A DNA stretch of 64,000 bases from positions 1 through 64,000 of the forward strand of contig NZ_JACSPP010000007.1 in assembly GCF_014837065.1 (NCBI RefSeq), in the 5' to 3' direction. This stretch comes from Phocaeicola intestinalis (GTDB taxonomy: Bacteria; Bacteroidota; Bacteroidia; Bacteroidales; Bacteroidaceae). The position numbers and the translations under genes are program-made. Positions 41 to 40,365 of this stretch are shown one piece after another (positions within the stretch are counted from its first letter, which is position 1; every line of letters starts with the position of its first letter). The notes under the pieces were generated by a model that did no database searches, was not told the origin of the DNA, and saw only the letters and a program-made list of their open reading frames with translations.

Positions 41-1555
41 TTATGCCAACATAAATATAATGCCAACATAAGGGCGCTTATGTTGTACACTACATAACCG
101 TCCGATCGCAACAGGCCTTACCGAGTTTTCTATCAAATTATTATCTATACAATATTTACCGTCCATCGTGTAATGTGCCAGTTGCCGCACATGATTAAGG
201 AAGTAGTTCATGGCTTGTCCTATCGGACTTTTAGGAAGGACTTTGCCATACTCCGTAAGACACCATTTCTCAAACGAACAGATTATAGGATATGCAAGCC
301 GTTTACGCAGTTCCATACGCTGCTGTTCATTCATGTTGTCGTCATCGGCTATACGTTCCACGTCATAGAGCATGCCTATCATGGTCAGGGCATACTCCGC
401 CCTGGCCTTGTCATGCTTCAATGCCCTCTCAAAGTAGCGTCTGGCATGTGCCCAACAGCATATGATGATGATACCTTTTGTCTTTTCAAGTATCCCATAA
501 CCGGTATATCCGTCTGTCTGTATGGCCCCTTGATAACCCTTGAAGAGTTCCAGAGCCACCTTCATGCTTCTGGAACCGTCATGGTAAAAGAAGAAGACCT
601 GGTTGCCCGTTACGCTCCGCACCAGCCAAAGATATCCCTTTATTGTCTGATGCTTCTCGTTGTTGATTATAGGTATAGTTGTCTCATCGGACTGGACATA
701 ATCGGAAGACAGGACCAGTTCCTTCAACCGGTAATAGGCGGGACGCATCAGGTCGGCCACTTCATGGAACCAGGCTTCGATGCTGGACGGTGGCAGGCTG
801 ATGCCTATACGCTTGAACATCTGTATCTGCCGGTAGAACGGAAGGTGGTCCACATATTTGCCGACCATCAGCTCGGTAAGTAGCGAAGCGCTTGCATAAC
901 TCTTGGGTATCGGTTCATTTTTCACCGGAGCGGTGATAATCCGGTTTGTATCCTTGCGCATACCCTTATGTCTGATAGTGACACGGACATACAGTTCGGC
1001 CGGTTTATATTCAAGATGCTCGGAAGTTTCCGTTTCATCAAACAGTACCCATTGGTCTTCATTGCCAAGATAGCCTTCGGGGTAGATATGTTCTTCTTCA
1101 CGGCGGAGATGTTCCGGCAGTTTTTGGCGGACGGGAACCTTCTTCTCGTGTTCCCTGACCTTCACCTGCCTGTACTCGCTCACCTCCTTTATGGCCTGGC
1201 GGACCGCCTCCTCCTCTTCCGGTGTCATATCCGACTCGCCGAAGTCAAGTTTCAGTTGGTTGGGATCGTCAGGGAGTCTTCTCTTTTCAGACATCGCCCC
1301 CCATACTTTCCTCTCAAGATACTCCACTTTGCGTTCCAACGATGCGATACGGTTGTCCTTGGATTCAATGGCCTTATCCTTAGCTTCAATGATTCTGTCT
1401 TTCTCTGACAGCCTGGCTTCGTAGGAGTCTTTCATTGCCTGCAGATCCGACATTTCTTTAAGCTTTCTTTCCGCCCGCATAAGACGTCTGTACAAGTCGT
1501 CACGGTCGCGAAGGACTGCCTCAAGTGCCATATTTAAATTCGGATCTTCTGCCAT
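41..1555 (-). pseudogene. IS66 transposase TnpC, C-terminally truncated
   Basis: This is the DDE transposase of IS66. It has an N-terminal coiled coil (about residues 1-90), a zinc-finger/helix region, and the catalytic core with the conserved stretches 'LWLVRS', 'QTDGYTGY', 'CWAHARR' and 'DNNLIENSVRPVAIGR'. After that last motif family members normally continue with about 30-40 residues (a 'FAGSHEAA'-like segment). Here the frame instead runs into 'LCSVQHKRP' and stops, so the C-terminus is lost. The foreign tail coincides with a palindromic sequence at 65-86. I infer a second insertion or deletion inside the IS. Confidence 0.85.
43..86. repeat. Tandem 12-mer and palindrome at the broken IS66 end
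   Basis: The 12-mer ATGCCAACATAA occurs at 43-54 and again at 60-71. It overlaps a palindrome (CAACATAAG / CTTATGTTG around GGCG). This lies exactly where TnpC departs from its family, so it probably marks the end of another mobile element or a deletion join. Confidence 0.5.
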
Positions 1556-1638
1556 TTTCTGTATTCTTTTTGTACTGTAAAGATACGAAAAATACCTGAT
1601 ATGCAGGAGGTTTTGAGCATACTTTTTTTACTGTAAAG

Positions 1639-2001
1639 CTACTGTTTTTTAGGAGTCCAGCGAGGTGCTCTTTTAGCTTCCGAAGGTGATATACCATGCA
1701 CAATCAATGTCAATTCTGACCAATTGACGGAGAGTGAAGCGGAAGACTCTTCACGGTCAATATCAGACAGACGGAAAGTGCCACTCTCAAGTCTCATATT
1801 ATATATCACCAGCCCACCGTATTCGGCATGGAGTATTTTCATGTTGGTCAATGATTTATTGATAAATATAAATGCATCGCCTTCCTGTACATCCTTACCC
1901 ATTTTCTCTGTCACGATTCCGCTCAGAGAGTAAAAACTCTTTCGCATATCAGTCGGATAAGGGTAAAGGAAAAAACGGTCTGAGTCACTGAGGCAAAACA
2001 T
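1639..2001 (-). CDS. IS66 family accessory protein TnpB
   Basis: A 120-aa protein with the IS66 Orf2/TnpB signature: 'FFLYPYPTDMRKSFYSL' near the N-terminus, then a region ending in 'RAPRWTPKKQ'. It is required together with TnpA and TnpC for IS66 transposition, with unknown chemistry. It lies 3 nt after the tnpA-like gene and is co-oriented with tnpC. It appears intact. Confidence 0.9.
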   Translation of the reverse strand: MFCLSDSDRFFLYPYPTDMRKSFYSLSGIVTEKMGKDVQEGDAFIFINKSLTNMKILHAEYGGLVIYNMRLESGTFRLSDIDREESSASLSVNWSELTLIVHGISPSEAKRAPRWTPKKQ

Positions 2002-2004
2002 GGC

Positions 2005-2346
2005 TTACTGGCATAAAAGGATTAATGACTTTAGCACCTCCAGTGATATTGCACTATTGATACGGAGCGTTACACCATTGGCGTATATAATCTCGCATTC
2101 GGAACCGTTTTCAGATTCTATCTCTTTTGAAGCCGTAGTGATGTTCAGTTTACCGTTCAGATTGTTCATTCTCACAGGAACAAATCCTTGTACATCAGGA
2201 AGAGCTGAATCGGTTAGTCTCCTACGCCAGTAATAAAATTTACCTTCGTCAAATCCGGTATTGTTACAATAATCACGGACGGACAAACCAGATAACTTCC
2301 AGTCTTCGTATGTCCGCTTGAATTGGTCTAATGTCATATTCTTCAT
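2005..2346 (-). CDS. IS66 family TnpA-like DNA-binding protein
   Basis: A 113-aa protein. Residues 1-45 resemble the helix-turn-helix of IS66 Orf1 ('YEDWKLSGLSVRDYCNNTG' followed by 'FYYWRRRL'), and the C-terminal half resembles the short conserved tail that ends these proteins. It is the first gene of the IS66 operon and starts about 80 bp inside the terminus at 2424. It appears intact. Confidence 0.85.
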   Translation of the reverse strand: MKNMTLDQFKRTYEDWKLSGLSVRDYCNNTGFDEGKFYYWRRRLTDSALPDVQGFVPVRMNNLNGKLNITTASKEIESENGSECEIIYANGVTLRINSAISLEVLKSLILLCQ

Positions 2347-2420: not shown

Positions 2421-3332
2421 TTACCCTACAACGGGCTTTAAAGAGGCTACTACACAGGTTGCATTTGGACAATAATTCTTTAACTCATACTTTATTCTTT
2501 CTATAAAAGGAGATTCATAATTTTGTAATACGCCTCCAGTAAGTATAACAGTAAATTTTGATTCATGAGTTAATGCGACTTTGGATAAACCACGAACAAT
2601 ATATTGAACCCATCTGTGAGCAATTGTATTCATTATATTAATAGAAACTTTATCGTTGCATTTAATAGCCTCAACTAATAAATGAGCAAATTTCGAAGGA
2701 TTGAACACAATATTATTACATGTAAAACTAGCATACAAATCTGCCAAAGATTTTTTATTATAAAACTGTAATAGTTTTGCTTCTAAAATAGTTGAGCTCT
2801 GAAAGCCATTATAAGAATCAATAATTCCAGACCAAATATGTTGACCTATTGCATAAGCACCATGATCTTCAATATTTATGAATCTGCCGTAAGTGTATTT
2901 CATATCATCCTTTGACCATAACGAACAGTTGAGTCTTGTACCAGCACATATTACAGCATAATTATCATTGTCTCTACGAAATGGTATTCCAGCACGCAAG
3001 GCTGCAATACAATCGTTAACAATGATAATTTTTTCTTTGGGGAACAATAAAGTTTTAGCAAGAGTATTTTGCATGTTAACAAAATCCTCTTGCCAATCTG
3101 CTCCACACATGGCTGCCAATATATAAACCACATTATCCAATGAAGAATGAATCTCAAGAATAGCCTGTTGGATAGAATGATAGATAAATAAATATCTATT
3201 ATTATCAAAATTGGCCATAGAGTTCCGAAAATCTTTATCTGTTACATAAGCACAGATTTCTCCAGAACATTTTAAAACTATAACATCTGTTTTAGTTTCA
3301 CCTTGATCAATAGCAACCAGCAAATGTTCCAT
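2421..3332 (-). pseudogene. BadF/BadG/N-acetylglucosamine-kinase-like ATPase, 3' end cut by IS66
   Basis: An ASKHA-fold kinase/ATPase. The phosphate-1 loop is visible at residues 8-15 ('AIDQGETKTD') and the adenosine-type segment near the end ('VILTGGVLQN'). Related proteins phosphorylate sugars such as GlcNAc or activate enzymes. The reading frame ends '..KPVVG' followed by TAA at 2421-2423, and this stop is part of the IS66 terminal sequence GTAAGC. The true C-terminus, probably 15-30 residues, is therefore lost. It starts 3 bp after the glycosyltransferase stop and is the last gene of the minus-strand peptide cluster. A sugar kinase next to a GT2 enzyme suggests a sugar is made or salvaged for peptide glycosylation, which is inference. 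Confidence 0.75.
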
Positions 3333-3334
3333 TC

Positions 3335-4417
3335 TTATTGTACTTTTATAAATCTATTATAAATAATGTTGAACAACCTATTAGAATGGAGTTTCCATAA
3401 TATATAAGAAATTAACCTTTTCCATACAGCCCTCATGTTATTGTTAATCATAACATTATAATAAACTTCATACCACCTATTCCACATAATTGAATTAATT
3501 TCTGAAAATGTAAATGTGTGAAAAGCATGCAAATATAATCTTCTTTCACATACATTCATCAATATAGACTTTTCTTTATTTAATCTATATGATGTTTTTA
3601 TTGCCTTTACATAATTTTCAACTACGCTAATGTAGCAATCAAAACGTTCATACGGCTTAACGCTCGTTAATGACCCCGAGGTATACATATAACCATATAA
3701 TAAAACATCAAGGTATGCAGCTGTTTTAGCTTTAAGAGTTATTTGCCATGAAAATAAACTGTCTTCACTATAAGAAAATCTTGCATCAAAACGATTATTT
3801 GCGATAAAATCCCTTCTAAATACAGCGCACCATACAGCACCTGTTTGAAGCATATACAACAAATCCTGTATGTTATTCATATTCATAATCCTAAGCCCTT
3901 TATTTAAGCAAGTAATACGATATTTATCCGGAAATCGTGTGAAGTTTTGCTTACCAAAACGGAGGATATCAAAATGATATGTTAGCAAATTTGATTTAAT
4001 TGTTTTTAAAGCACCATTTGCAATAAAATCATCAGAATCCACGAACCAAATATACATTCCGTTGGCTTTTTCGATACCTTTATTTCTCGCTATTGCAGCA
4101 CCTTGATGTTTAGGTAGTTTTACGATATTTATACGAGATCTAATTTTCAGTTCTAAAGCAAGGTCCAAATCTTCAAATAATAATGAAGAAACAGGTAAAA
4201 TCTTTGCAAGATAAGAAGTATTTAGGCTATTTGAGAACTTATTACCTCTAAGTTCTTCAACCAAATGAACAGAATTATCAGAAGAATAATCATCAACAAT
4301 AATAATTTCAAAATTCATATCTAAGTACTGAGATAATATCGAGTCAATACAAAAGCCGATAGTCTTCTCCCTATTCCATACAGGAATAATGAATGATATT
4401 AAAATGTCTGCTGCCAT
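3335..4417 (-). CDS. Family 2 glycosyltransferase
   Basis: A 360-aa GT-A fold enzyme. It opens with 'SFIIPVWNREKTIGFCIDSI' and 'IIIVDDYSSDNS' (nucleotide-sugar binding). It continues with 'GAAIARNKGIEKANGMYIWF' and the metal-binding 'VDSDD' near residue 130, then 'YSEDSLFSW' near 220. The last 100 residues are basic and aromatic with no clear transmembrane helix. It lies between the B12-type radical SAM gene (19 bp) and the kinase gene (2 bp), so it is in the same transcript. In a RiPP cluster its likely job is to glycosylate the modified peptide. A role in surface polysaccharide is possible, but no other polysaccharide genes are nearby. Confidence 0.88.
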   Translation of the reverse strand: MAADILISFIIPVWNREKTIGFCIDSILSQYLDMNFEIIIVDDYSSDNSVHLVEELRGNKFSNSLNTSYLAKILPVSSLLFEDLDLALELKIRSRINIVKLPKHQGAAIARNKGIEKANGMYIWFVDSDDFIANGALKTIKSNLLTYHFDILRFGKQNFTRFPDKYRITCLNKGLRIMNMNNIQDLLYMLQTGAVWCAVFRRDFIANNRFDARFSYSEDSLFSWQITLKAKTAAYLDVLLYGYMYTSGSLTSVKPYERFDCYISVVENYVKAIKTSYRLNKEKSILMNVCERRLYLHAFHTFTFSEINSIMWNRWYEVYYNVMINNNMRAVWKRLISYILWKLHSNRLFNIIYNRFIKVQ

Positions 4418-4436
4418 ATAATACTGTACTCATCTA

Positions 4437-6275
4437 TTACTTATTAGCGTATTTATCCGAAACAATAACTGTAGATACTATCTCATCATATATGTCGGAC
4501 ATATATATCAAACCCAATTCATTCAGCTGTTTTAATCGCTTAAACAACTCTTCTTTTGTATAGCTATCTGCTAGTTCATTATATATATTGTTGAAATTTA
4601 CTACGTTTCTATCACAGTTATAAAGAATTTTAATATCATCAAGGCTAAGTTGTATTTGATTACAAGCTACATTGTTAGTATATTCAGTATACTCAGCTCC
4701 ATTATCATTCATTGATAATGAATAATCAAATTTATGCGTTTTATAATATGTTTCAGTTTCCGCAAATAACTCCCATAGAGGATTGTATTTCCTAGTTTGA
4801 ATTAAGAACACATCATATGTATATTCTGGTTTCAATAAAGAGGCTGGCATAAATTCCTGCATAGGGGTGTAATCCCAATCTTGAATTCTATTAGAATCAG
4901 TCAAAGTTTTATAATCTCGGGAAGTTGACATTACACATAATTCTCTAAGAGAATGATAAAATGAATCGTATTTTAATAGAAATCTTAAATAAAATAGGTT
5001 TTGAATGTTCTCTAAAATTAATACATCTGTTTCAAATGGCATACTTCGTAGTATATTTTGAGGATACATAAGCATATCATAAGCAAAACACCATTTACAA
5101 ATAAGTAATAAATGGGAAAAATGGCTTTTCTTATTCATCAATTTTAGCATTTTATCTGATGTGGATTCATAGCCAATCTGAATTTTCCTAATGCCTGCAT
5201 CCCGCATCTTCAAAACAATGTCTGCATTAATATCTTTTGCTATAATTTCAGCAAGAGTTATAGCAAATTTATTAGTCTTTCTTATATCCTTATAAAACTC
5301 AAGTATCTCATCAAATCTCTTAATATCATTTCCGACAACATCATTATCAATATAATAAAAGAGCTGAGCATTATATTGCTTTATATATTCACGAACTTCA
5401 TATTTGATGCGCTCAACTTTCTTGACACGATGTTTATAACCATCATTCATAAAACAAAAGGAACAACCATTCCAATGGCAACCTCTACCACTTTCTAATG
5501 GGAATCGTACTTCTTCTATATCCACATATGTTTGTTCGATATAGTCTGAGAAATCAGCTATAGGAGTGCTATTTATATCAATAAAATGGTTTATGCGTTT
5601 TAATGAAGAAACAGGCATACCGTTTTGACGATATATAATATTGGGAGTCAAGGACAGATTTCCATTACTTACCAAAGAATTTAAAAGACCAAGGAGTGGT
5701 AATTCATACTCACCCCACGTGGCAAAATCATAACAATCAAAACTGTCCATCAAAGCCATAGCCTTTCTCTCAAATTCCTGAGCCTCTATTATTGTTATTA
5801 CCTCAGGATAACTTTCTTTCAATATTTCACAGAATACACCCGCTGAGATAAGCTCGTATTTATAGAATTTAGATTGAACATATACATAATCAAAATTTTC
5901 GATGTTCATATCCTTCAACTCTTTTTTTATAGAGTTTTTCAATAAAATGGCGTTGTTTTCCAAATGAGATTCTATTGCTTTGTTAGGAAAGTACTTAGAA
6001 ATAAGAATCTTTATTCTATCAAAGACATTCTGATCTTTTCTGTCAATTGCATAATAATTATAGAAGGGCATTAAGTCTTTGAAAATCTGTGATAATGGAA
6101 TTGAATCGATCTGATTTAACCAAAAATCATTAATAACATTTCTTAAAGAAAGATTCCAATATTTTACACTTGCCTTATAACCATTCTGAATTAGAAACGG
6201 TTTAATAACCGATAACGAATATCCTGGACGTAATGGGTCTACAGGAGGCAAACAGTTCAACAAAACATTTTTCAT
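4437..6275 (-). CDS. B12-binding-like radical SAM protein, RiPP C-methyltransferase type
   Basis: A 612-aa protein. The N-terminal 230 residues resemble the cobalamin-binding domain of RiPP maturation radical SAM C-methyltransferases: it starts 'LLNCLPPVDPLRPGYSLSVI', and this family opens with similar proline-rich text. The cluster motif at 261-276 is 'ESGRGCHWNGCSFCFM', with Cys 266, 271 and 274. The spacing is Cx4Cx2C, where classic radical SAM enzymes have Cx3Cx2C. The barrel follows to about 480, then a C-terminal winged-helix-like tail ('KILYNCDRNVVNFNNIYNEL'). It sits 3 bp after the GNAT gene. Expected chemistry is methylation at unactivated carbon, or another cobalamin-radical reaction, on the precursor. 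No cobalamin DxHxxG motif is obvious, so B12 use is uncertain. Confidence 0.75.
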   Translation of the reverse strand: MKNVLLNCLPPVDPLRPGYSLSVIKPFLIQNGYKASVKYWNLSLRNVINDFWLNQIDSIPLSQIFKDLMPFYNYYAIDRKDQNVFDRIKILISKYFPNKAIESHLENNAILLKNSIKKELKDMNIENFDYVYVQSKFYKYELISAGVFCEILKESYPEVITIIEAQEFERKAMALMDSFDCYDFATWGEYELPLLGLLNSLVSNGNLSLTPNIIYRQNGMPVSSLKRINHFIDINSTPIADFSDYIEQTYVDIEEVRFPLESGRGCHWNGCSFCFMNDGYKHRVKKVERIKYEVREYIKQYNAQLFYYIDNDVVGNDIKRFDEILEFYKDIRKTNKFAITLAEIIAKDINADIVLKMRDAGIRKIQIGYESTSDKMLKLMNKKSHFSHLLLICKWCFAYDMLMYPQNILRSMPFETDVLILENIQNLFYLRFLLKYDSFYHSLRELCVMSTSRDYKTLTDSNRIQDWDYTPMQEFMPASLLKPEYTYDVFLIQTRKYNPLWELFAETETYYKTHKFDYSLSMNDNGAEYTEYTNNVACNQIQLSLDDIKILYNCDRNVVNFNNIYNELADSYTKEELFKRLKQLNELGLIYMSDIYDEIVSTVIVSDKYANK

Positions 6276-6278
6276 GAC

Positions 6279-6812
6279 TCATTTATTTTTTGTTAATCCT
6301 AATATAGCTATATCAATAAAACGACCTCTCTCAAATTCATATTCATGTAATATAGCCTCACAACTAAAACCAAGTTTCTTAAATAAAGACATGGCTCTGA
6401 CATTTATTGGATCCACATATGCTTGAATTCGGTTAAGTTTCAATGTTTCAAATGCATATACTATGACAAGTTTTAATGCTTCAGAAGCATATCCAAAATG
6501 CCAATATCTAGGAGAAAATATACAACTTAATGTACCACGATGATGTTGATTAGTAAAGTCCTTAATACCAACAGACCCAATATAAACCGATTTAGCATCA
6601 AGTATAACAGCCCACTTAATTGATTCAGACATTAAATATTTGGTGTGTAGAGCTGATATTTCAGATTTTGCTTCCGATAAACTATCAATAGTATTTCGAC
6701 CATAATACCTTACGGCGCTTTCATCAGATAATAAGTTATAATAATCATTAGCATCAGAATCAAGATGCTCTCTCAAGGATAACCTTATAGAAGACATATT
6801 AGGAAAAGACAT
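6279..6812 (-). CDS. GNAT N-acetyltransferase (RimJ/RimL type)
   Basis: A 177-aa stand-alone GNAT of the Acetyltransf_3 type. It has an N-terminal substrate arm ('IRLSLREHLDSDAND'), a motif A region ('FGYASEALKLVIVYAF') and the motif B signature 'NVRAMSLFKKLGF'. The end 'YEFERGRFIDIAIL' is close to the corresponding part of the GNAT domain fused to the neighbouring radical SAM protein, so the two probably arose by duplication. It starts 1 bp after that gene. Acetyl transfer from acetyl-CoA to an amine of the peptide, or immunity by acetylation, are the likely roles (inference). Confidence 0.85.
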   Translation of the reverse strand: MSFPNMSSIRLSLREHLDSDANDYYNLLSDESAVRYYGRNTIDSLSEAKSEISALHTKYLMSESIKWAVILDAKSVYIGSVGIKDFTNQHHRGTLSCIFSPRYWHFGYASEALKLVIVYAFETLKLNRIQAYVDPINVRAMSLFKKLGFSCEAILHEYEFERGRFIDIAILGLTKNK

Positions 6813-6813
6813 A

Positions 6814-8700
6814 TTAAGTATGATATAAATTTAACATAAAGGCGTGATGTCTTGCTATAGCAATGGAACAATGATTTTGTGGTGCACTAAGCAAATCATT
6901 ATTTAATAAAAATGCATCACCAGGGCAGACATCTATACAAAATTTGCAATAATCATATTTTCCACATTCCTTTAAATCAGCAATTTTCAAAGACCGCCAA
7001 TTATCCAAAAGTTCAACACCATTCAATCTTGTAAAATCTTCAATGAAAGGCATATCTTTTTTCTTACGCTTCAGGCATCTGATATCATTATTTCTCAAAC
7101 TTGCTATTACACAAGGGAATGCTATACATAGCCCAACTTCACCGAATGGATTAATATATAGAGTATTGGTTTTATTATAACAAGGAGTTTCTGACGGATC
7201 CTTATTTATGTTGCACGCACCAATCTTGCGACTCTTATAATAGATTGGGCTATCAGAGGACATTGCCATTTGTAAAAGTTGAGTTTCATCCAAAGAATAT
7301 TTAGATAATTTTCTATCATCCATGGAAGGATAAATAGTACAATTTAACATCGAACTATCAGATAAATCATAGCCTTTAGCCAAAGTTTCTTTCCAGCAAT
7401 GATAATTGATAGATAGAGCTGTATTTTTATGACTAGTCTCTATATGTTTCTCCTTGAAATATGACAATGCGTATAAGATTTTATTGTATGCCCCCTTTAC
7501 TCCAGTTACTGAATCATGCACATTACTGTTATTCCCATAAACACTAAAGCAGACAGTAGAAGGGAACAACGAGGCCACAACCTGCAAAAGTTTTTCATTG
7601 AAAGCCAGCCCATTTGTATATATTATCAACTGAATATTTTTAGATCTTATATATTGACACAGCTTGATAAAATAATCCTTCATAAGAACTTCACCACCAG
7701 ACATAGCTAGCCTAAAAACCCCCAAATAAGACAATTCATCAACAAGCTTTACTGCTTCTTCAAAAGAGAGTTCATTTTCATGTTCATTCCTATGCCCAGA
7801 ATGAGCATTCATATTGTAGCAATGTACACATTTTTCATTACACCGATTTGTAATGTCCCAGTGGATATCATATACATATCCCTCATTTTTAATTTTCTCA
7901 TAGAAAGTATCTGGACTCTTGTCAAATATTTCAATGGTCCCAGAAGAGTTTTTACTCTCTCCAAGGGGGGCATAAAATATGATTATACCTTCGTCAATCA
8001 ATATGGATAATGATGAAATATCCTGATTTACCGTAAAACCTCCAGAAGCCAGTGTTTTCCATATTAAAGACGTTTCACCAGAAAGTAGATAATATTTATG
8101 TGATCTTTGTTCATATATCAAAGTTTTCGATAAGCCATCAACAATATATTCTTTCCATGAAATCCATGGCACTATGTAATAAAATCTGCTTTTTAATAAA
8201 GCAAAGATATCTATATCAATATAACGTCCTCGATCTAACTCATACTCTTTCAATCTACCTTCATGAATAAAACCAAGGCCTTTTAATGATTTGATAGCAT
8301 TGATATTATCACAGTCAACCAACGCCTGAATCCTATTAATTTCAGTTGATTCAAATACTTCTTTATAAAATAGAGATGAAGCTTTAACAGAATAACCTTT
8401 TTTTCTACACTCTGGTAACAAAATACAGTATGCATTTGCTCTATTATGTATGGCATTGATGTTGAAGACTCCAATCTCACCAAGATATTCATTTGTAAAG
8501 GCATCAGCAATTACTCGATGAATGGACTTTTTATTTAATTCAGAATTTATATAAGAAGTCATCAATGTATATGACTCTTCAGTTGTCTTAAATTCATTCA
8601 TACCATAAAACTGCATAGAAGAAGGATCTGAATGCAATTTATGGAATTGAAGTAGATCCATTTTGGTATCAAACTTCCTTATTATAATATCTGAAATCAT
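6814..8700 (-). CDS. Fusion: GNAT + PqqD-like RRE + radical SAM + SPASM peptide maturase
   Basis: A 628-aa protein of unusual architecture. Residues 1-170 are a complete GNAT domain ('INRIQALVDCDNINAIKSLK', 'YELDRGRYIDIDIF'). Residues 180-245 resemble PqqD, the peptide-recognition fold ('YEQRSHKYYLLSGETSLIWK', then 'LIDEGIIIFY'). The radical SAM motif CNEKCVHC has Cys 287, 291 and 294 and is followed by 'MSGGEVLM'. The C-terminus carries SPASM-type auxiliary cluster cysteines (496, 507, 525, 530, 542, 579, 585, 588, 592, 611). Such SPASM enzymes make thioether or carbon crosslinks in RiPPs. With the acetyltransferase joined in one chain it may both crosslink and acetylate the precursor. It lies between the first maturase gene (145-bp gap) and the single GNAT (1-bp gap). 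Confidence 0.85.
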   Translation of the reverse strand: MISDIIIRKFDTKMDLLQFHKLHSDPSSMQFYGMNEFKTTEESYTLMTSYINSELNKKSIHRVIADAFTNEYLGEIGVFNINAIHNRANAYCILLPECRKKGYSVKASSLFYKEVFESTEINRIQALVDCDNINAIKSLKGLGFIHEGRLKEYELDRGRYIDIDIFALLKSRFYYIVPWISWKEYIVDGLSKTLIYEQRSHKYYLLSGETSLIWKTLASGGFTVNQDISSLSILIDEGIIIFYAPLGESKNSSGTIEIFDKSPDTFYEKIKNEGYVYDIHWDITNRCNEKCVHCYNMNAHSGHRNEHENELSFEEAVKLVDELSYLGVFRLAMSGGEVLMKDYFIKLCQYIRSKNIQLIIYTNGLAFNEKLLQVVASLFPSTVCFSVYGNNSNVHDSVTGVKGAYNKILYALSYFKEKHIETSHKNTALSINYHCWKETLAKGYDLSDSSMLNCTIYPSMDDRKLSKYSLDETQLLQMAMSSDSPIYYKSRKIGACNINKDPSETPCYNKTNTLYINPFGEVGLCIAFPCVIASLRNNDIRCLKRKKKDMPFIEDFTRLNGVELLDNWRSLKIADLKECGKYDYCKFCIDVCPGDAFLLNNDLLSAPQNHCSIAIARHHAFMLNLYHT

Positions 8701-8845
8701 TATTATGAATAAACAATATTGTTAATTTATTTAAAAGACGCCCATTTACCAGTTTAGGAGTCATATGTACAATAATACCATAGCCTTTCGATAATTTCTC
8801 CTATTAATAAGGTATATGGTAATTACCTTTGTTAATCATGTCGTT
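8701..8845. other. 145-bp gap inside the peptide cluster
   Basis: AT-rich spacer between the two SPASM genes. Only frames of a few codons are present. A small dyad (GGTAATTACC) at 8819-8828 is the only structure seen. No promoter match was found. Confidence 0.4.
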
Positions 8846-10066
8846 TTATTTTTGCATTTTAAGTAAATCATCGATAAAAGCATCTTTGTCTTTCCATACT
8901 CCATTTGCAACATCATATGTACAATACCAAGGCTTATCATCAACGATCATACTAATTGAGTCTGGGCGACAATCTTTACATAAATGTCTAAATTCACAAT
9001 TTTGACACTCCTTCACGTTATCTTTTGAGTAGTTAATAATTGTGCGGTCCAAAATTTCTGTTAAAGCCTTATTCCTCAAATTGCCATGGCATAATCTGCG
9101 TTCCATAACACAAGGATACACATTCATATCACTACCTATATAAAGATAATTAGCAAAGCAACATTCAGAATATGTACTTTTGAGAGTAGCTTCCAAATCA
9201 TTAAATTTAAATGTATCAAGAGTTATTAGCTTTTCTGAAAGTAATTGTCGATTATAATGAGAAAGGTTTCCTCTACCTGTTAAACGGATATAATCTCTTC
9301 GATAAGGAACTCCGAAATCTAGTTCTTTACCAATATCAATGCCAGCTGCGTATATACCGACATATCTAAATTTCATATTAAGATCCTGCAAGTTATGCAG
9401 TGTCTCTATACTCTTCTCATATGAGCCTTTTACTTGTGTTATTTTCTCATGTTCCTCTTTAATAAAAGAATGTAAGGACATAGCAATCTTACAATTAGGA
9501 TAATTTTGCTTTATATATTCAAGGTGTTTTTTATTAGTCAATGTACCGTTAAAGAAGAGCTCGAATTCCTCAAATGACGAAGAAGCATAATCAAGCATCT
9601 TGAATAAAATATCCTCTTTAATCACAAATGGTTCCCCACCTATAAGTTGAACTGCTTTAATTCCAAATCTGACCAACTCATCTACAACATAAGTAAAGTC
9701 TTCATATGATAGACATTTTTTTTCTCTTTGTTCTGTCTCATTGTAACAATGAGTACATTTCAAGTTACATTGATTAGTCAATTCAATCCATGCATAATCA
9801 ATATGACGAGAGAAATTAAATAATTCTGTTATATCGGGCCACTTTTGTAATTCATTGCAATCTGTTTCTTCTATTAGTTGTAGTTCCAGAGCACCATCTA
9901 ATGTATCTTTATCACTTTCGGAAACCTGACCGTCTAAAAGGTTATGAAAAAATTGTGATACATCTTTATCTACCCAATAGTGTTTATCATTATTACAATC
10001 GTATATTGATGCTTTCTTTAATCCTTCTACTATATATACATTATCTTTTATTCTGTATTTCTTCAT
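8846..10066 (-). CDS. Radical SAM/SPASM peptide maturase
   Basis: A 406-aa protein. Residues 1-90 form an N-terminal module resembling those of Bacteroidales SPASM peptide maturases ('VYIVEGLKKASIYDCNNDKH'), probably for leader-peptide recognition. The radical SAM motif CNLKCTHC holds Cys 100, 104 and 107, followed by 'LIGGEPF'. The SPASM domain has Cys 302, 303, 319, 326, 354, 357, 363, 366 and 382 ('CQNCEFRHLCKDC'). These residues would hold two auxiliary iron-sulfur clusters. The gene starts 54 bp after the precursor stop with a strong hairpin between them. Predicted role: thioether or C-C crosslinking of the Cys-rich precursor. The exact bond cannot be read from sequence. Confidence 0.88.
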   Translation of the reverse strand: MKKYRIKDNVYIVEGLKKASIYDCNNDKHYWVDKDVSQFFHNLLDGQVSESDKDTLDGALELQLIEETDCNELQKWPDITELFNFSRHIDYAWIELTNQCNLKCTHCYNETEQREKKCLSYEDFTYVVDELVRFGIKAVQLIGGEPFVIKEDILFKMLDYASSSFEEFELFFNGTLTNKKHLEYIKQNYPNCKIAMSLHSFIKEEHEKITQVKGSYEKSIETLHNLQDLNMKFRYVGIYAAGIDIGKELDFGVPYRRDYIRLTGRGNLSHYNRQLLSEKLITLDTFKFNDLEATLKSTYSECCFANYLYIGSDMNVYPCVMERRLCHGNLRNKALTEILDRTIINYSKDNVKECQNCEFRHLCKDCRPDSISMIVDDKPWYCTYDVANGVWKDKDAFIDDLLKMQK

Positions 10067-10080
10067 AATATTAAAATTTT

Positions 10081-10106
10081 AGGAGGATGTGGTAAACATC
10101 CTCCTT
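10081..10106 (-). terminator. Hairpin attenuator between precursor and maturase genes
   Basis: A perfect 10-bp stem, AGGAGGATGT pairing with ACATCCTCCT, with a short loop. On the minus strand it is followed by AAAATTTTAATATT and then the maturase ATG at 10066. With only a weak U-tract it would act as a partial terminator or as a processing/stability element. Such elements let a precursor be made in excess over its enzymes. The stem also buries the AGGAGG purine tract. Confidence 0.65.
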
Positions 10107-10120
10107 ATTAATACATCACG

Positions 10121-10249
10121 TTATTTAATTTTATTGCAACGTGTAATAGGTGATCCCGGTCCAGCAATACATTCACCAGGACAACAACGGTTTACAATAT
10201 GGATGGATTTTTCTTTTCTTCCATCACACAAAAGTTTAAACTTATTCAT
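10121..10249 (-). CDS. Candidate RiPP precursor peptide, Cys-rich, 42 aa
   Basis: A short ORF directly upstream of the SPASM maturase. It reads 42 residues: a basic N-terminal half beginning 'MNKFKLLCDGRKEKSIHIVN', then a core-like C-terminal half with 'RCCPGEC' followed by Gly/Pro-rich 'IAGPGSPITRC'. Cysteines are at 8, 22, 23, 27 and 38. This layout (charged leader, Cys/Gly/Pro-rich tail, first gene before radical SAM/SPASM genes, hairpin after its stop) is what a RiPP precursor looks like. I do not recognise the family; in particular it lacks the GG-leader of the common Bacteroidales precursors. The start at 10249 is the only in-frame ATG. The leader/core boundary is inferred, perhaps at Asn20-Arg21. 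Confidence 0.7.
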   Translation of the reverse strand: MNKFKLLCDGRKEKSIHIVNRCCPGECIAGPGSPITRCNKIK

Positions 10250-10314
10250 GTTTAAAGACCATTAGATTACTCCTACTCTATTAAAGCTTTTCGGATTCTG
10301 CTTTTTATAACGCA

Positions 10315-11755: not shown

Positions 11756-13338
11756 CAAGTTTCGCAAGTACTCAAATAATGTAATAAAAAAGGCTAAAGA
11801 GTTTGATAATTCGATGATTATCACTATATTAATGTCGCCAAACAAACGATATAGCACCCTTTAGCCATGAACAAAAATAGATATATTATCGGTGAACTCC
11901 AAGAGTTTTTTGCAAAGAATGACTCTAGCAAGGCAATAAACAGCATATCAACCATTATGAACAGCATAAGGATACAAAGCAAAGTCATCGGGTCAGTTAA
12001 GAATCCGAATTGCAAATTCACCTGTCTTCAGGTGTTGCAGCTGCTTGTTCTGTTCCCGTTCTTTTCAATTAAGAATGCTGCCAACTATTCGTCTTCTGCC
12101 CTGGGCAAGATGTTTGTCTGCCACAAAGATATGTTCTATCGTTTCATGAACGACGGCAACATCAATTGGCGACGTATAATCTACTCGGTTTTCAGGCAGG
12201 TGTATTCACGTGTGAAACGTAGAACGACATTGAAGTCGGACATCAGGTGTGTCATCATCGATGATACAGACCTTCCGAAGACCGGATTCAAGACCGAGAA
12301 GATTGGCAAGGTATTCTCTCATACCCAAATGAAGCCTATACTTGGATTCAAGGCAATGTTCCTCTGTTTTACGGATGGTGTATCCCAGTTTCTCCTTGAC
12401 TTTTCTCTTCATGGATAGGAAGGAAAACGAAGCGATAAGCCACAGGGTTTATCCAAGAAACAGACGGAAGCTCGCTACTGCAAGGAACACTCAGAGGATA
12501 AGCGTATTGCCAGGCGTAGCGCTGAGTATTTTGCAAGTAAGATTGAGACGGCCATCAGTATGCTCAAACGCTCAATCATAGAGGGCGTACGTTTCGATTA
12601 TCTTCTTGTTGACAGCTGGTTTACCTGCTCTGAGCTTTTGAAGTTCGTAGTCTCAAGGCACTTTGGATGCCACCTTATCGGAATGATAAAGATGGGCAAA
12701 ACCAAGTATGAGACAGATCTTGGAAACAAGACAGCGCCTGAGCTTATCAAGGCTCTCCAGAAATCCAAGAGCGTAAAGTATAGCCGCTCAATCGGTTACT
12801 ACACAGCAACTGTCTCTGCTAAAATCTCCGGCATTAAGGTCAGTCTGCTCTTCTACAGAAGAGGTAAGAACGGCAATTGGAATGCTCTGCTTACCTCTGA
12901 TCTTAAACTTGATGTAAAAGAAGCCTTCAGACTTTATTCAAGAAGATGGGTTATCGAAGTGGCTCATAAAGAGATGAAGCAAAACCTCAAACTCGGAAAG
13001 AACCAGTGCAGAGACTTCGCCGGACAGATTGCAGGCATATCATTGTGCGTACTACAGTACAATATACTCAGTTATGTCAAACGCAATGAGTCATACGAAA
13101 CTATCGGAGGACTCTTTGCTGAAATTTCAAAGAACTCTGTTGAACTTTCAGTAGCCGAAAAAATTTGGCTGCTGATCGTAGAAGTTATAAACGTCATTGC
13201 CGAGGTACTTAACTGTGATGCAATGGTTCTGACAGAACAAGTAATATCAAACGATAAACAAATCAAAGCAGTAAAGCAGGCTTTCGACAGGCTGACACCA
13301 GCCGCCTGAGGAGCTACACTTTACTTGCGAAACTTAAG
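11756..13338 (+). mobile_element. IS4-family insertion sequence, about 1.58 kb
   Basis: Terminal inverted repeats: left CAAGTTTCGCAAGTA (11756-11770), right TACTTGCGAAACTT(AAG) at 13322-13338. They are bracketed by the 9-bp repeat TTATAATTT. A single transposase gene runs between them, interrupted by an amber codon. It was inserted just upstream of the 53-aa Cys-rich ORF. Confidence 0.75.
11867..13309 (+). pseudogene. IS4-family DDE transposase with one in-frame amber stop
   Basis: 480 codons in one frame with a single TAG at 12416-12418. Upstream is 'SIKNAANYSSSALGKMF' and the first catalytic Asp in 'VIIDDTDLPKTGF'. Downstream are 'DYLLVDSWF' (second Asp) and the IS4 YREK signature, seen as 'YSRRWVIEVAHKEMK'. 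Both halves are otherwise open and family-like, so the change looks recent: 'SLHG' stop 'EGKR'. It could be a true inactivating mutation, a base error or suppressed. The two halves could also be read as separate 183- and 249-aa ORFs. Confidence 0.85.
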
Positions 13339-15219: not shown

Positions 15220-15466
15220 TTAAAGGAAAGATTACAGGGATAAACTGCGACCGATGTGACGCATAGCCGTAAATCAAAGGCGGCTATCCTTATATCCCAT
15301 ATACGACCTCACAATTACAGTGAAAATCCACCTTCCCAAATAACCAAACATAGTCTGCTTATAAAATCCCGAAATAAGACAGGGATTTCAGCTCCCTCCG
15401 ATCTGCATAGTTCAGTTGCTTCGCTATGACATCTGATGTAATATAATGCACTTTGATGATAGTCTC

Positions 15467-15497
15467 TTGTGTTCCACAGCCTTCTATTCTATTTTTG
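15467..15497 (+). promoter_or_regulatory. Bacteroidales promoter for the HTH gene pair
   Basis: TTG at 15467-15469, 20 bp, then TATTTTTG at 15490-15497 (fits TAnnTTTG). The first ATG after it is at 15522, which sets the start of the downstream gene. Confidence 0.75.
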
Positions 15498-15521
15498 TAC
15501 CAACCACTTAAACAAATGATT

Positions 15522-15830
15522 ATGGAGATAGTGAACATAGAAGCCAGTGCATTTATGGAAATGAACGACATATTGTTCAAGATAGAAAAACAACTGAAAG
15601 GACTGAACTCTTCCAAATCTGAACAGAATGAATGGTTGGATAATCAGGATGTATGTATTCTTATGAATATATCAGACAGAAAACTGTTGTCTTTAAGACA
15701 GAAAGGGCTAATCCCCTTCAGTCGTATAGACAGAAAGATTTATTATAAAAAAGAAGATATTCTAAGCTATGTAAGGAATAACCTTAAAACATATACAAAT
15801 AATGGAAATGGGACAGCAGGTATTGAATAA
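15522..15830 (+). CDS. Helix-turn-helix protein of conjugative-element type
   Basis: A 102-aa protein starting 'MEIVNIEASAFMEM'. The N-terminal helix is followed by a MerR/excisionase-like winged HTH: 'WLDNQDVCILMNISDRKLLS', then 'SRIDRKIYYKKEDILSYV'. Proteins of this kind occur as tandem pairs downstream of integrases in Bacteroides conjugative and mobilisable elements and control excision. The start at 15522 is chosen because an upstream in-frame start would overlap the promoter. No integrase is in the window, so this is probably part of an element remnant. Confidence 0.8.
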   Translation: MEIVNIEASAFMEMNDILFKIEKQLKGLNSSKSEQNEWLDNQDVCILMNISDRKLLSLRQKGLIPFSRIDRKIYYKKEDILSYVRNNLKTYTNNGNGTAGIE

Positions 15831-16104
15831 GGATAGTAATGAGGTCAAGAGATTTATTGAAGCCATGGAAGGTATATCCAAAATGTTGGATGCAAATCCT
15901 TTAATCTACAGACTTATATTAGACGGGAACCGCTATATTACAGAACAAGAATTATCAAAGGCTCTCAAAATAACCAAAAGAACACTCATTGAATATAGAA
16001 TGAATGGTAAATTGCCATATTACAAAATAGGAGGAAAGATCCTGTATAAGGAACAGGACATTATAGAAATATTGGAAAGAAACAAAGTTTTGGTATTTGA
16101 ATGA
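15802..16104 (+). CDS. Second helix-turn-helix protein (excisionase-like)
   Basis: A 100-aa protein overlapping the previous gene by 29 bp. It has an N-terminal helical part, then 'YITEQELSKALKITKRTLIE' and 'MNGKLPYYKIGGKILYKEQD', a DNA-binding wing typical of excisionase-like HTH_17 proteins. It probably acts with the upstream paralogue. The tight overlap indicates translational coupling. Confidence 0.8.
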   Translation: MEMGQQVLNKDSNEVKRFIEAMEGISKMLDANPLIYRLILDGNRYITEQELSKALKITKRTLIEYRMNGKLPYYKIGGKILYKEQDIIEILERNKVLVFE

Positions 16105-40178: not shown

Positions 40179-40182
40179 TAGG

Positions 40183-40254
40183 TAGCCCGTGGGAGAATCG
40201 AACTCCCCTTTCAAGAATGAAAATCTTGCGTCCTAACCGATAGACGAACGGGCC
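40183..40254 (-). tRNA. tRNA-Glu (UUC), copy 2
   Basis: 72 nt; the 3' CCA is not encoded. The acceptor stem pairs GGCCCGT with ACGGGCT (one G:U). The anticodon stem CAAGA/TCTTG holds loop TTTTCAT, so the anticodon is TTC. The T arm is present (GGGAG TTCGATT CTCCC). Identical to the copy at 40294-40365 and in the same transcript. Confidence 0.95.
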
Positions 40255-40293
40255 ATCTTTCTTTTCTGCCTTGGCAGATGTTGTTTTTGGAAG

Positions 40294-40365
40294 TAGCCCG
40301 TGGGAGAATCGAACTCCCCTTTCAAGAATGAAAATCTTGCGTCCTAACCGATAGACGAACGGGCC
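40294..40365 (-). tRNA. tRNA-Glu (UUC), copy 1
   Basis: Identical in sequence to the copy at 40183-40254, 39 bp upstream of it. Transcribed from the promoter at 40436-40407. Confidence 0.95.

Follow-up and report, generated by a model that had tools for sequence, protein, structure and literature searches.

A rare gene cluster of Phocaeicola intestinalis with three radical SAM enzymes and a short RCCPGE peptide: a likely RiPP-type pathway of new composition

The window analysed here is a stretch of 64,000 nucleotides from Phocaeicola intestinalis (positions 1 to 64,000 of contig NZ_JACSPP010000007.1, assembly GCF_014837065.1). Between positions 2421 and 10249 it contains a cluster of seven open reading frames (ORFs), all on the minus strand, which we consider likely to encode an undescribed pathway of the type leading to ribosomally synthesised and post-translationally modified peptides (RiPPs), with a short RCCPGE core tailored by radical chemistry, acylation and glycosylation. 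Two hallmarks of RiPP pathways are present. A short encoded precursor with a conserved core lies beside the enzymes, and the set of modifying enzymes is conserved (6/6) in a second locus, L044, which belongs to an uncultured Bacteroidales bin (contig CALVDF010000007.1) and is the only other locus found with the whole enzyme set. Within RiPP-type pathways the cluster is new in its composition. A preliminary description, made from the letters of the window alone, had arrived at a similar interpretation, which our results support as largely right. The features of the cluster are the following (GNAT, Gcn5-related N-acetyltransferase; SAM, S-adenosylmethionine; RRE, RiPP recognition element; GT2, family 2 glycosyltransferase; percentages are identities to L044).

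10270..10304, minus strand: DUF805b RNA (Rfam RF02914), cis-regulatory, 5' of the peptide gene (48.5 bits, gathering threshold 35.6)
10121..10249, minus strand: candidate gene of a 42-aa precursor peptide, MNKF...NRCCPGECIAGPGSPITRCNKIK, core motif RCCPGE-x-I (ORF with a homologue in L044)
10081..10105, minus strand: hairpin with 10-bp stem and 5-nt loop between the peptide gene and r406 (z -3.8)
8846..10066, minus strand: r406, a 406-aa radical SAM/SPASM-type maturase (PF04055, 65 bits; L044 orthologue 47%)
8191..8700, minus strand: GNAT domain of a 628-aa fusion (PF13302, Acetyltransf_3, residues 5-144, 51 bits; 64% to a separate L044 GNAT)
6814..8190, minus strand: r628, comprising the putative RRE, the radical SAM domain and the SPASM-like C-terminal part of the fusion (PF04055, residues 283-427, 64 bits)
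6279..6812, minus strand: stand-alone GNAT acyltransferase of 177 aa (PF13302, 95 bits; 58%)
4437..6275, minus strand: r612, a 612-aa predicted cobalamin-type radical SAM enzyme (radical SAM, 45 bits; 56%)
3335..4417, minus strand: GT2 glycosyltransferase (PF00535, 91 bits; 49%)
2421..3332, minus strand: sugar kinase resembling N-acetylmuramic acid (MurNAc)/N-acetylglucosamine (GlcNAc) kinases, C-terminus missing beside IS66 (profile match to 8zo3, E 4.7e-13)

The seven genes thus follow each other as peptide, r406, GNAT–radical SAM fusion, GNAT, r612, GT2 and kinase, with gaps of 54, 145, 1, 3, 19 and 2 bp. This agrees with the preliminary description, which had listed seven co-oriented genes separated by 1-145 bp and had also recognised the second GNAT and the GT2 enzyme.

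The 42-aa peptide had been taken for a RiPP precursor, and the comparison with L044 bears this out. In the equivalent position, between kinase and r406, that locus has a 30-aa ORF (MKDFEIISIPLNAQECEVSSRCCPGEYIGV) ending with ...SSRCCPGEYIGV, and RCCPGE-x-I is common to both peptides and thereby to two of the two known orthologous clusters. Aligned with the L044 intergenic stretch (220 bp, three forward frames) the window peptide reaches a local score of 51, compared with a mean of 21.3 (sd 3.5, maximum 43) for 2000 dinucleotide-preserving shuffles, none of which attains 51. The surrounding RNA features are shared as well. The conserved stretch 5' of both peptide genes corresponds to the DUF805b RNA (49.6 bits in L044, same threshold) and occurs once per genome if up to three mismatches are allowed, the window copy being the sole DUF805b match in its genome. 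From its CCGAAAA start to the ATG of the peptide the distance is 45 nt in the window and 46 nt in L044. The hairpin behind the peptide gene has a counterpart with 10-bp stem and 5-nt loop (z -4.3) in L044. It is absent from the listing of U-tract terminators and probably represents an attenuator or an mRNA-stability element. Since motif match, DUF805b spacing and hairpin are found in both loci, the 42-aa ORF is very probably the real first gene of the cluster. Among Pfam and NCBIfam models no nitrile hydratase leader peptide (NHLP) model matches it, which short peptides can escape, and it shows neither Cys-x-x-x repeats nor a match to TIGR04117. Four matches to the core motif in viral contigs lie in open frames of 26, 13, 26 and 62 codons and were judged not to be precursor genes; two of the four have GRCCPGEYIEI in common.

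The DUF805b RNA supports only the start and the position of the peptide gene. As a marker of RiPP precursors it was ruled out, for 262 of the 393 order genomes searched have matches (176 over the family cut-off). Its role may be the general one of a promoter-like or leader element. Thirty DUF805b loci including that of the window were compared. An ORF follows the RNA in 25 of them, and by eye its product looks secreted in about 12 cases and like a GG-leader peptide in four. Apart from the window 24 of 29 loci have such an ORF, and in 23 of these 24 it starts at 43-54 nt, once via a second ATG; L098, L109 and L115 were missed by the regular expression and L092 and L108 are without an ORF of at least 20 aa. 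When L045, L046, L048, L049, L081 and the window were searched with Rfam, the RNA exceeded its gathering threshold in L045 (2288-2320) and L081 (6170-6204) besides the window and not in L046, L048 and L049. Further DUF805b loci are L091-L119, and copies are occasionally clustered. Rfam matches to potC and FopS are below gathering and were taken as chance. Literature searches covered open-licence PMC articles, in which nothing on DUF805b was found.

Orthologues of all six window enzymes occur in L044 with 42-64% identity. The L044 run begins with an M42 aminopeptidase, a radical SAM protein (425 aa), a CXXX-repeat peptide, a second radical SAM protein (391 aa), a weakly GNAT-like protein and another CXXX-repeat peptide. 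It continues with GT2, kinase, the 30-aa peptide, r406, GNAT, radical SAM, GNAT and r612. Between the two loci the order r406, GNAT, radical SAM, GNAT, r612 is kept, and GT2 and kinase stand upstream of this core block in L044 and downstream of it in the window. As the core order is kept, GT2 and kinase have changed place and nothing of the CXXX part is found in the window cluster, the RCCPGE peptide and the six enzymes can be regarded as a shared module. In the preliminary description homologous loci lacking the peptide or any conserved gene order were named as evidence that would speak against a RiPP pathway. L044 retains the motif peptide and the order from r406 to r612, and its GT2 and kinase genes are relocated. 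The co-occurrence of peptide, GNAT fusion and GT2 that was to be looked for is found there too, except that GNAT and radical SAM are not fused. The L044 segment 308-3830, immediately before the shared module, contains the two CXXX-repeat peptides, which have similar leaders, the two radical SAM maturase-like genes and the weakly GNAT-like gene, with the M42 peptidase gene ahead of them.

Of the two SPASM-type maturases, r406 has a clear radical SAM domain, and its proposed SPASM domain is weak, with 18.4 bits against a cut-off of 21.5 that the orthologue in L044 passes (23.2 bits). The 628-aa gene is a single stop-free frame in the window. In L044 the corresponding GNAT and radical SAM genes are separate, with a 14-nt overlap when the ATG at 8060 is taken as the start, and the radical SAM part of r628 is 59.5% identical to its L044 counterpart with conserved C-terminal cysteines. 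Judged from this alignment the window protein is a fusion of a GNAT and a radical SAM gene. The GNAT and radical SAM portions of the proposed GNAT/RRE/radical-SAM/SPASM architecture are recognised by Pfam. An RRE is plausible from its position and from a low-confidence model that predicts three strands followed by helices for residues 180-242. With this model GNATs fill the best 50 rows of a Foldseek search. For neither r628 nor r406 was an NCBIfam equivalog match obtained. The PADLOC matches of the locus, viperin models on r406 and r628 only, are ascribed to the common radical SAM domain, and an anti-phage role was rejected. The five best outside relatives of r628 are radical SAM proteins of 524-537 aa, and by eye a peptide ORF of 34-36 aa adjoins in four of the five, for example MKKNLKILKASTTITMSNCPRASEYQCGTSYRRS. 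They constitute a radical SAM/SPASM-type family without NCBIfam equivalog match (L028 7629-10298, L029 3841-6492, L030 7587-11022, L031 9779-11356, L032 8964-10700), and in 3/5 loci a protein of about 280 aa is encoded nearby.

For r612 the AlphaFold2 (AF2) model has a mean pLDDT of 93.2. It is based on 36 aligned sequences from 34 loci, the window and L033; L075 was dropped as it has no complete r612 ORF. The model superimposes on TsrM (6wte_A) with Z 22.2 and 3.7 Å over 420 residues, and further structural neighbours are OxsB (Z 21.2), CysS (20.1), AprD4 (19.9), TokK (19.3) and the methyl-coenzyme M reductase glutamine methylase (19.2). C266, C271 and C274 are invariant in all 36 sequences. 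A cobalamin-type radical SAM fold over residues 1 to about 510, in which a Rossmann-type domain at the N-terminus precedes the radical SAM barrel and its Cys motif, is thus a well supported prediction. C-methylation by r612 is possible at the level of the fold, which alone is no proof of methyl transfer because AprD4, a diol dehydratase, scores Z 19.9. The earlier label of a RiPP-type C-methyltransferase is compatible with this predicted fold and falls short at the family cut-off given below. Relatives were collected by aligning r612 with its distant relative in L033 and scanning the GTDB species genomes with this two-row alignment, which yielded 35 r612-family loci. Some of them encode GG-leader-like peptides (L045 2340-2534, L046 at about 570). 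Pfam searches of transporter-like ORFs in five loci chosen by eye revealed C39-peptidase ATP-binding cassette (ABC) transporters in L046, L048 and L049, HlyD in L045 and an ABC ATPase domain in L057. Such leader-like peptides and C39 transporters at some loci support peptide substrates for the r612 family. In L033, an IMG/VR contig, two neighbouring tyrosine-recombinase-like proteins precede the r612-family gene, a hint that this family travels on mobile elements.

The best PDB matches of the stand-alone GNAT are SpeG-type amine acetyltransferases. The kinase is related in sequence to the characterised MurNAc/GlcNAc kinase 8zo3 (profile positions 5-283), and stays below the cut-offs of the NCBIfam NagK equivalog (24.9 bits, cut-off 370) and of BadF-type ATPases (30.1 bits, cut-off 31.5; L044 orthologue 40.5). 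It ends with ...SLKPVVG next to IS66, and the L044 orthologue (331 aa, 42% identity) is 31 residues longer at the C-terminus. The designation as sugar-kinase-like ATPase is justified by the 8zo3 match, with the qualification that the gene, compared with its orthologue, is incomplete and clipped beside IS66.

The statement that the operon matches no familiar RiPP class is in keeping with the comparisons made: cut-offs for mycofactocin and glycocin enzymes are not reached, CXXX repeats are absent from the peptide and no match to the cluster architecture was found in the open-licence PMC articles searched. Mycofactocin biosynthesis resembles the window cluster in combining a short precursor, a radical SAM/SPASM enzyme and a glycosyltransferase, the GT2 enzyme MftF. 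According to PMC7491314 mycofactocin is oligo-glycosylated by MftF. In contrast, the window cluster adds a cobalamin-type radical SAM enzyme, two GNATs and a kinase, and equivalog matches are missing: GT2 reaches 45.8 of the 280 bits required for the glycosyltransferase (TIGR03965), and r628 and r406 reach 65.6 and 52.5 of the 265 bits for the maturase (TIGR03962). Selidamide clusters likewise include a GNAT acyltransferase, and in the sections of PMC9505594 describing the phaeornamide cluster genes for an NHLP precursor, a lanthionine synthetase, an arginase, a hydroxylase and a transporter are named; the window differs by its radical SAM enzymes, one of them fused to a GNAT. With CXXX-repeat radical SAM peptides (TIGR04115/TIGR04117) there is a link through L044, where the shared module has two peptides with such Cys repeats and maturase-like genes next to it, although the L044 scores are under the cut-offs, the window peptide is of another type and the window cluster has no such genes. 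Glycocins share the presence of a GT2 enzyme (SunS-type, acting on Cys) in the cluster of a Cys-containing peptide, whereas the window GT2 scores 23.5 bits against the TIGR04195 cut-off of 350 and is accompanied by radical SAM enzymes. A survey of Bacteroidales RiPPs (PMC10352776) covers nine clusters, of which two have glycosyltransferases and most combine GG-motif precursors with a C39 transporter, and the word acetyltransferase does not occur in it.

In the proposed pathway a transcript led by the DUF805b RNA would give the peptide and, past the hairpin, probably smaller amounts of the enzymes. Then r406 and r628 would modify the RCCPGE-x-I core, most likely by Cys- or carbon-centred bonds, and r612 would contribute a radical reaction that depends on cobalamin, with C-methylation the likeliest. 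GT2 may attach a sugar that the kinase helps to supply or phosphorylates, and the GNATs may acylate an amine, either on the peptide or on the sugar. If this is true, the cluster would define a RiPP class in which a single short core is acylated, glycosylated and modified by two SPASM-type radical enzymes and one of the cobalamin type. The natural GNAT–radical SAM fusion suggests a physical partnership, the compact set of seven genes is suited to co-expression testing, and more clusters could be sought by way of an RCCPGE peptide whose start codon follows a DUF805b RNA at about 45 nt.

Several observations weigh against a RiPP-type pathway. The whole set is present in two loci only, and the motif is known from just two peptides, which have little in common in their N-terminal halves and end differently, with 14 residues past the motif in the window peptide and two in L044. 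Despite being aligned over residues 5-591 of 612 to the RiPP C-methyltransferase family TIGR03975, r612 scores 122.6 bits, under the cut-off of 281.85, as does its L044 orthologue (152.6 bits). Most of the 34 r612-family loci gave neither a C39 nor a GG-peptide signal (C39 positive in 2/34) in a simple motif scan that misses split or remote genes. No Pfam model, PqqD included, matches the RRE read into r628, and the structure model of this protein is poor (pLDDT 54). The window cluster also contains neither a protease nor an exporter, as already noted in the preliminary description. Finally it may be decaying, with a shortened kinase and no other copy in the genus.

Decay leads to one of the rival explanations, a degraded non-functional remnant of a once active cluster, which we regard as unlikely. 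Beside IS66 the kinase is shorter than its orthologue by 31 C-terminal residues, the transposase upstream is split and 61 genomes of the genus (own included) hold no other copy. On the other hand the remaining five enzyme ORFs have about the length of those in L044, three of them were checked as stop-free frames, and the peptide gene retains its RNA element and hairpin. It is more improbable still that the enzymes serve a sugar or cofactor pathway without any peptide, the short ORF being incidental. GT2 enzymes, sugar kinases and amine acetyltransferases are indeed frequent in amino-sugar pathways, and PseH is a further match of the stand-alone GNAT (47.6 bits, cut-off 93.1). Yet motif, position, DUF805b spacing and hairpin are all common to window and L044, and some r612-family members adjoin GG-leader-like peptides and C39 transporters.

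A different question is the nature of the product. As a less probable alternative, the peptide may give rise to a small molecule that stays inside the cell, comparable to mycofactocin or pyrroloquinoline quinone (PQQ) biosynthesis, instead of a secreted bacteriocin; a few C-terminal residues would be reworked by radical SAM chemistry, the peptide trimmed and the remainder glycosylated by GT2. The precursors are short (42 and 30 aa), the L044 motif is found at the very C-terminus, many tailoring enzymes are available for a core of about eight residues, an M42 aminopeptidase gene opens the L044 run beside the CXXX-repeat part, and mycofactocin is likewise glycosylated (PMC7491314). Inspection by eye revealed no obvious exporter ORF in the window cluster or in the co-directional L044 run. 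This lack is weak evidence for an intracellular product because both loci are cut off on one side (r612 or kinase side). An exporter could sit past the cut side of each locus, and an ABC ATPase/permease-like pair, recognised by eye, is located upstream of the L044 run at a distance of about 9 kb with other genes in between. Furthermore, equivalog matches to mycofactocin or PQQ enzymes are missing and the window peptide continues for 14 residues past the motif. In a specific and rather doubtful form, the RiPP-type pathway would yield a cofactor- or signal-like intracellular compound and no exported bacteriocin. Three radical SAM enzymes, of which one depends on cobalamin and one is fused to a GNAT, would rebuild the RCCPGE-x-I end of a 30-42-aa precursor, which would be glycosylated with an amino sugar tailored by GNATs and kinase, giving a new Bacteroidales class of peptide-derived small molecule.

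The cluster is very rare. With the cut-offs applied, neither r406 in 251 genomes of the family nor the r628 alignment in 61 genomes of the genus found any copy but that of the window itself. Distant matches were the only additional ones in 344 (r628) and 295 (r406) genomes of the order and, with r612, in 395 genomes of the phylum. A search of the L044 family (199 genomes) gave three distant matches and otherwise only the copy of L044 itself. These genome samples overlap, and queries and cut-offs differ between the searches. The full set is absent from ten wider neighbourhoods inspected, a sample outside of which L085-L087 and L020-L021 lie. Other clusters were possibly missed since both patterns of the GTDB scan were derived from r612. 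Viral contigs contained no relative when searched with r406, r628 or their two-row alignments; a viral-contig scan gave 11 relatives, L033 being the close one. Plasmids showed no near DNA match and 92 records with partial r406 matches; in phages r628 was matched in part by 23 records. In neither group does a match cover 80%.

The base composition points to a probable foreign origin. As had been described, the block is more AT-rich than core genes, with 31% GC compared with 47% for positions 17000-40000; at third codon positions (GC3) the cluster enzyme genes have 17-26% and two core genes 47% and 60%. Low GC and GC3 fit an import of the cluster, as does the finding that no other genome of the window's family was among the matches listed in the order-wide DUF805b search, and the seven genes were probably acquired by horizontal transfer. 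The assumed insertion-sequence boundaries apply to the IS66 side, and upstream a DDE transposase (11867-13309) is split into two ORFs and apparently broken. The element adjoining the cluster end is:

41..2346, minus strand: IS66 element with three ORFs (DDE_Tnp_IS66 and TnpB_IS66), at the contig terminus

Pfam assigns IS66 proteins to 41-1555 and 1639-2001, and 2005-2346 is the likely third ORF, without Pfam match. The contig terminus falls inside or beside this element, so that its boundary is approximate. Elsewhere in the window two neighbouring small helix-turn-helix-like proteins, by eye of excisionase type, are encoded at 15453-16104, and a tandem tRNA-Glu pair whose aligned sequences are identical is found at 40181-40365.

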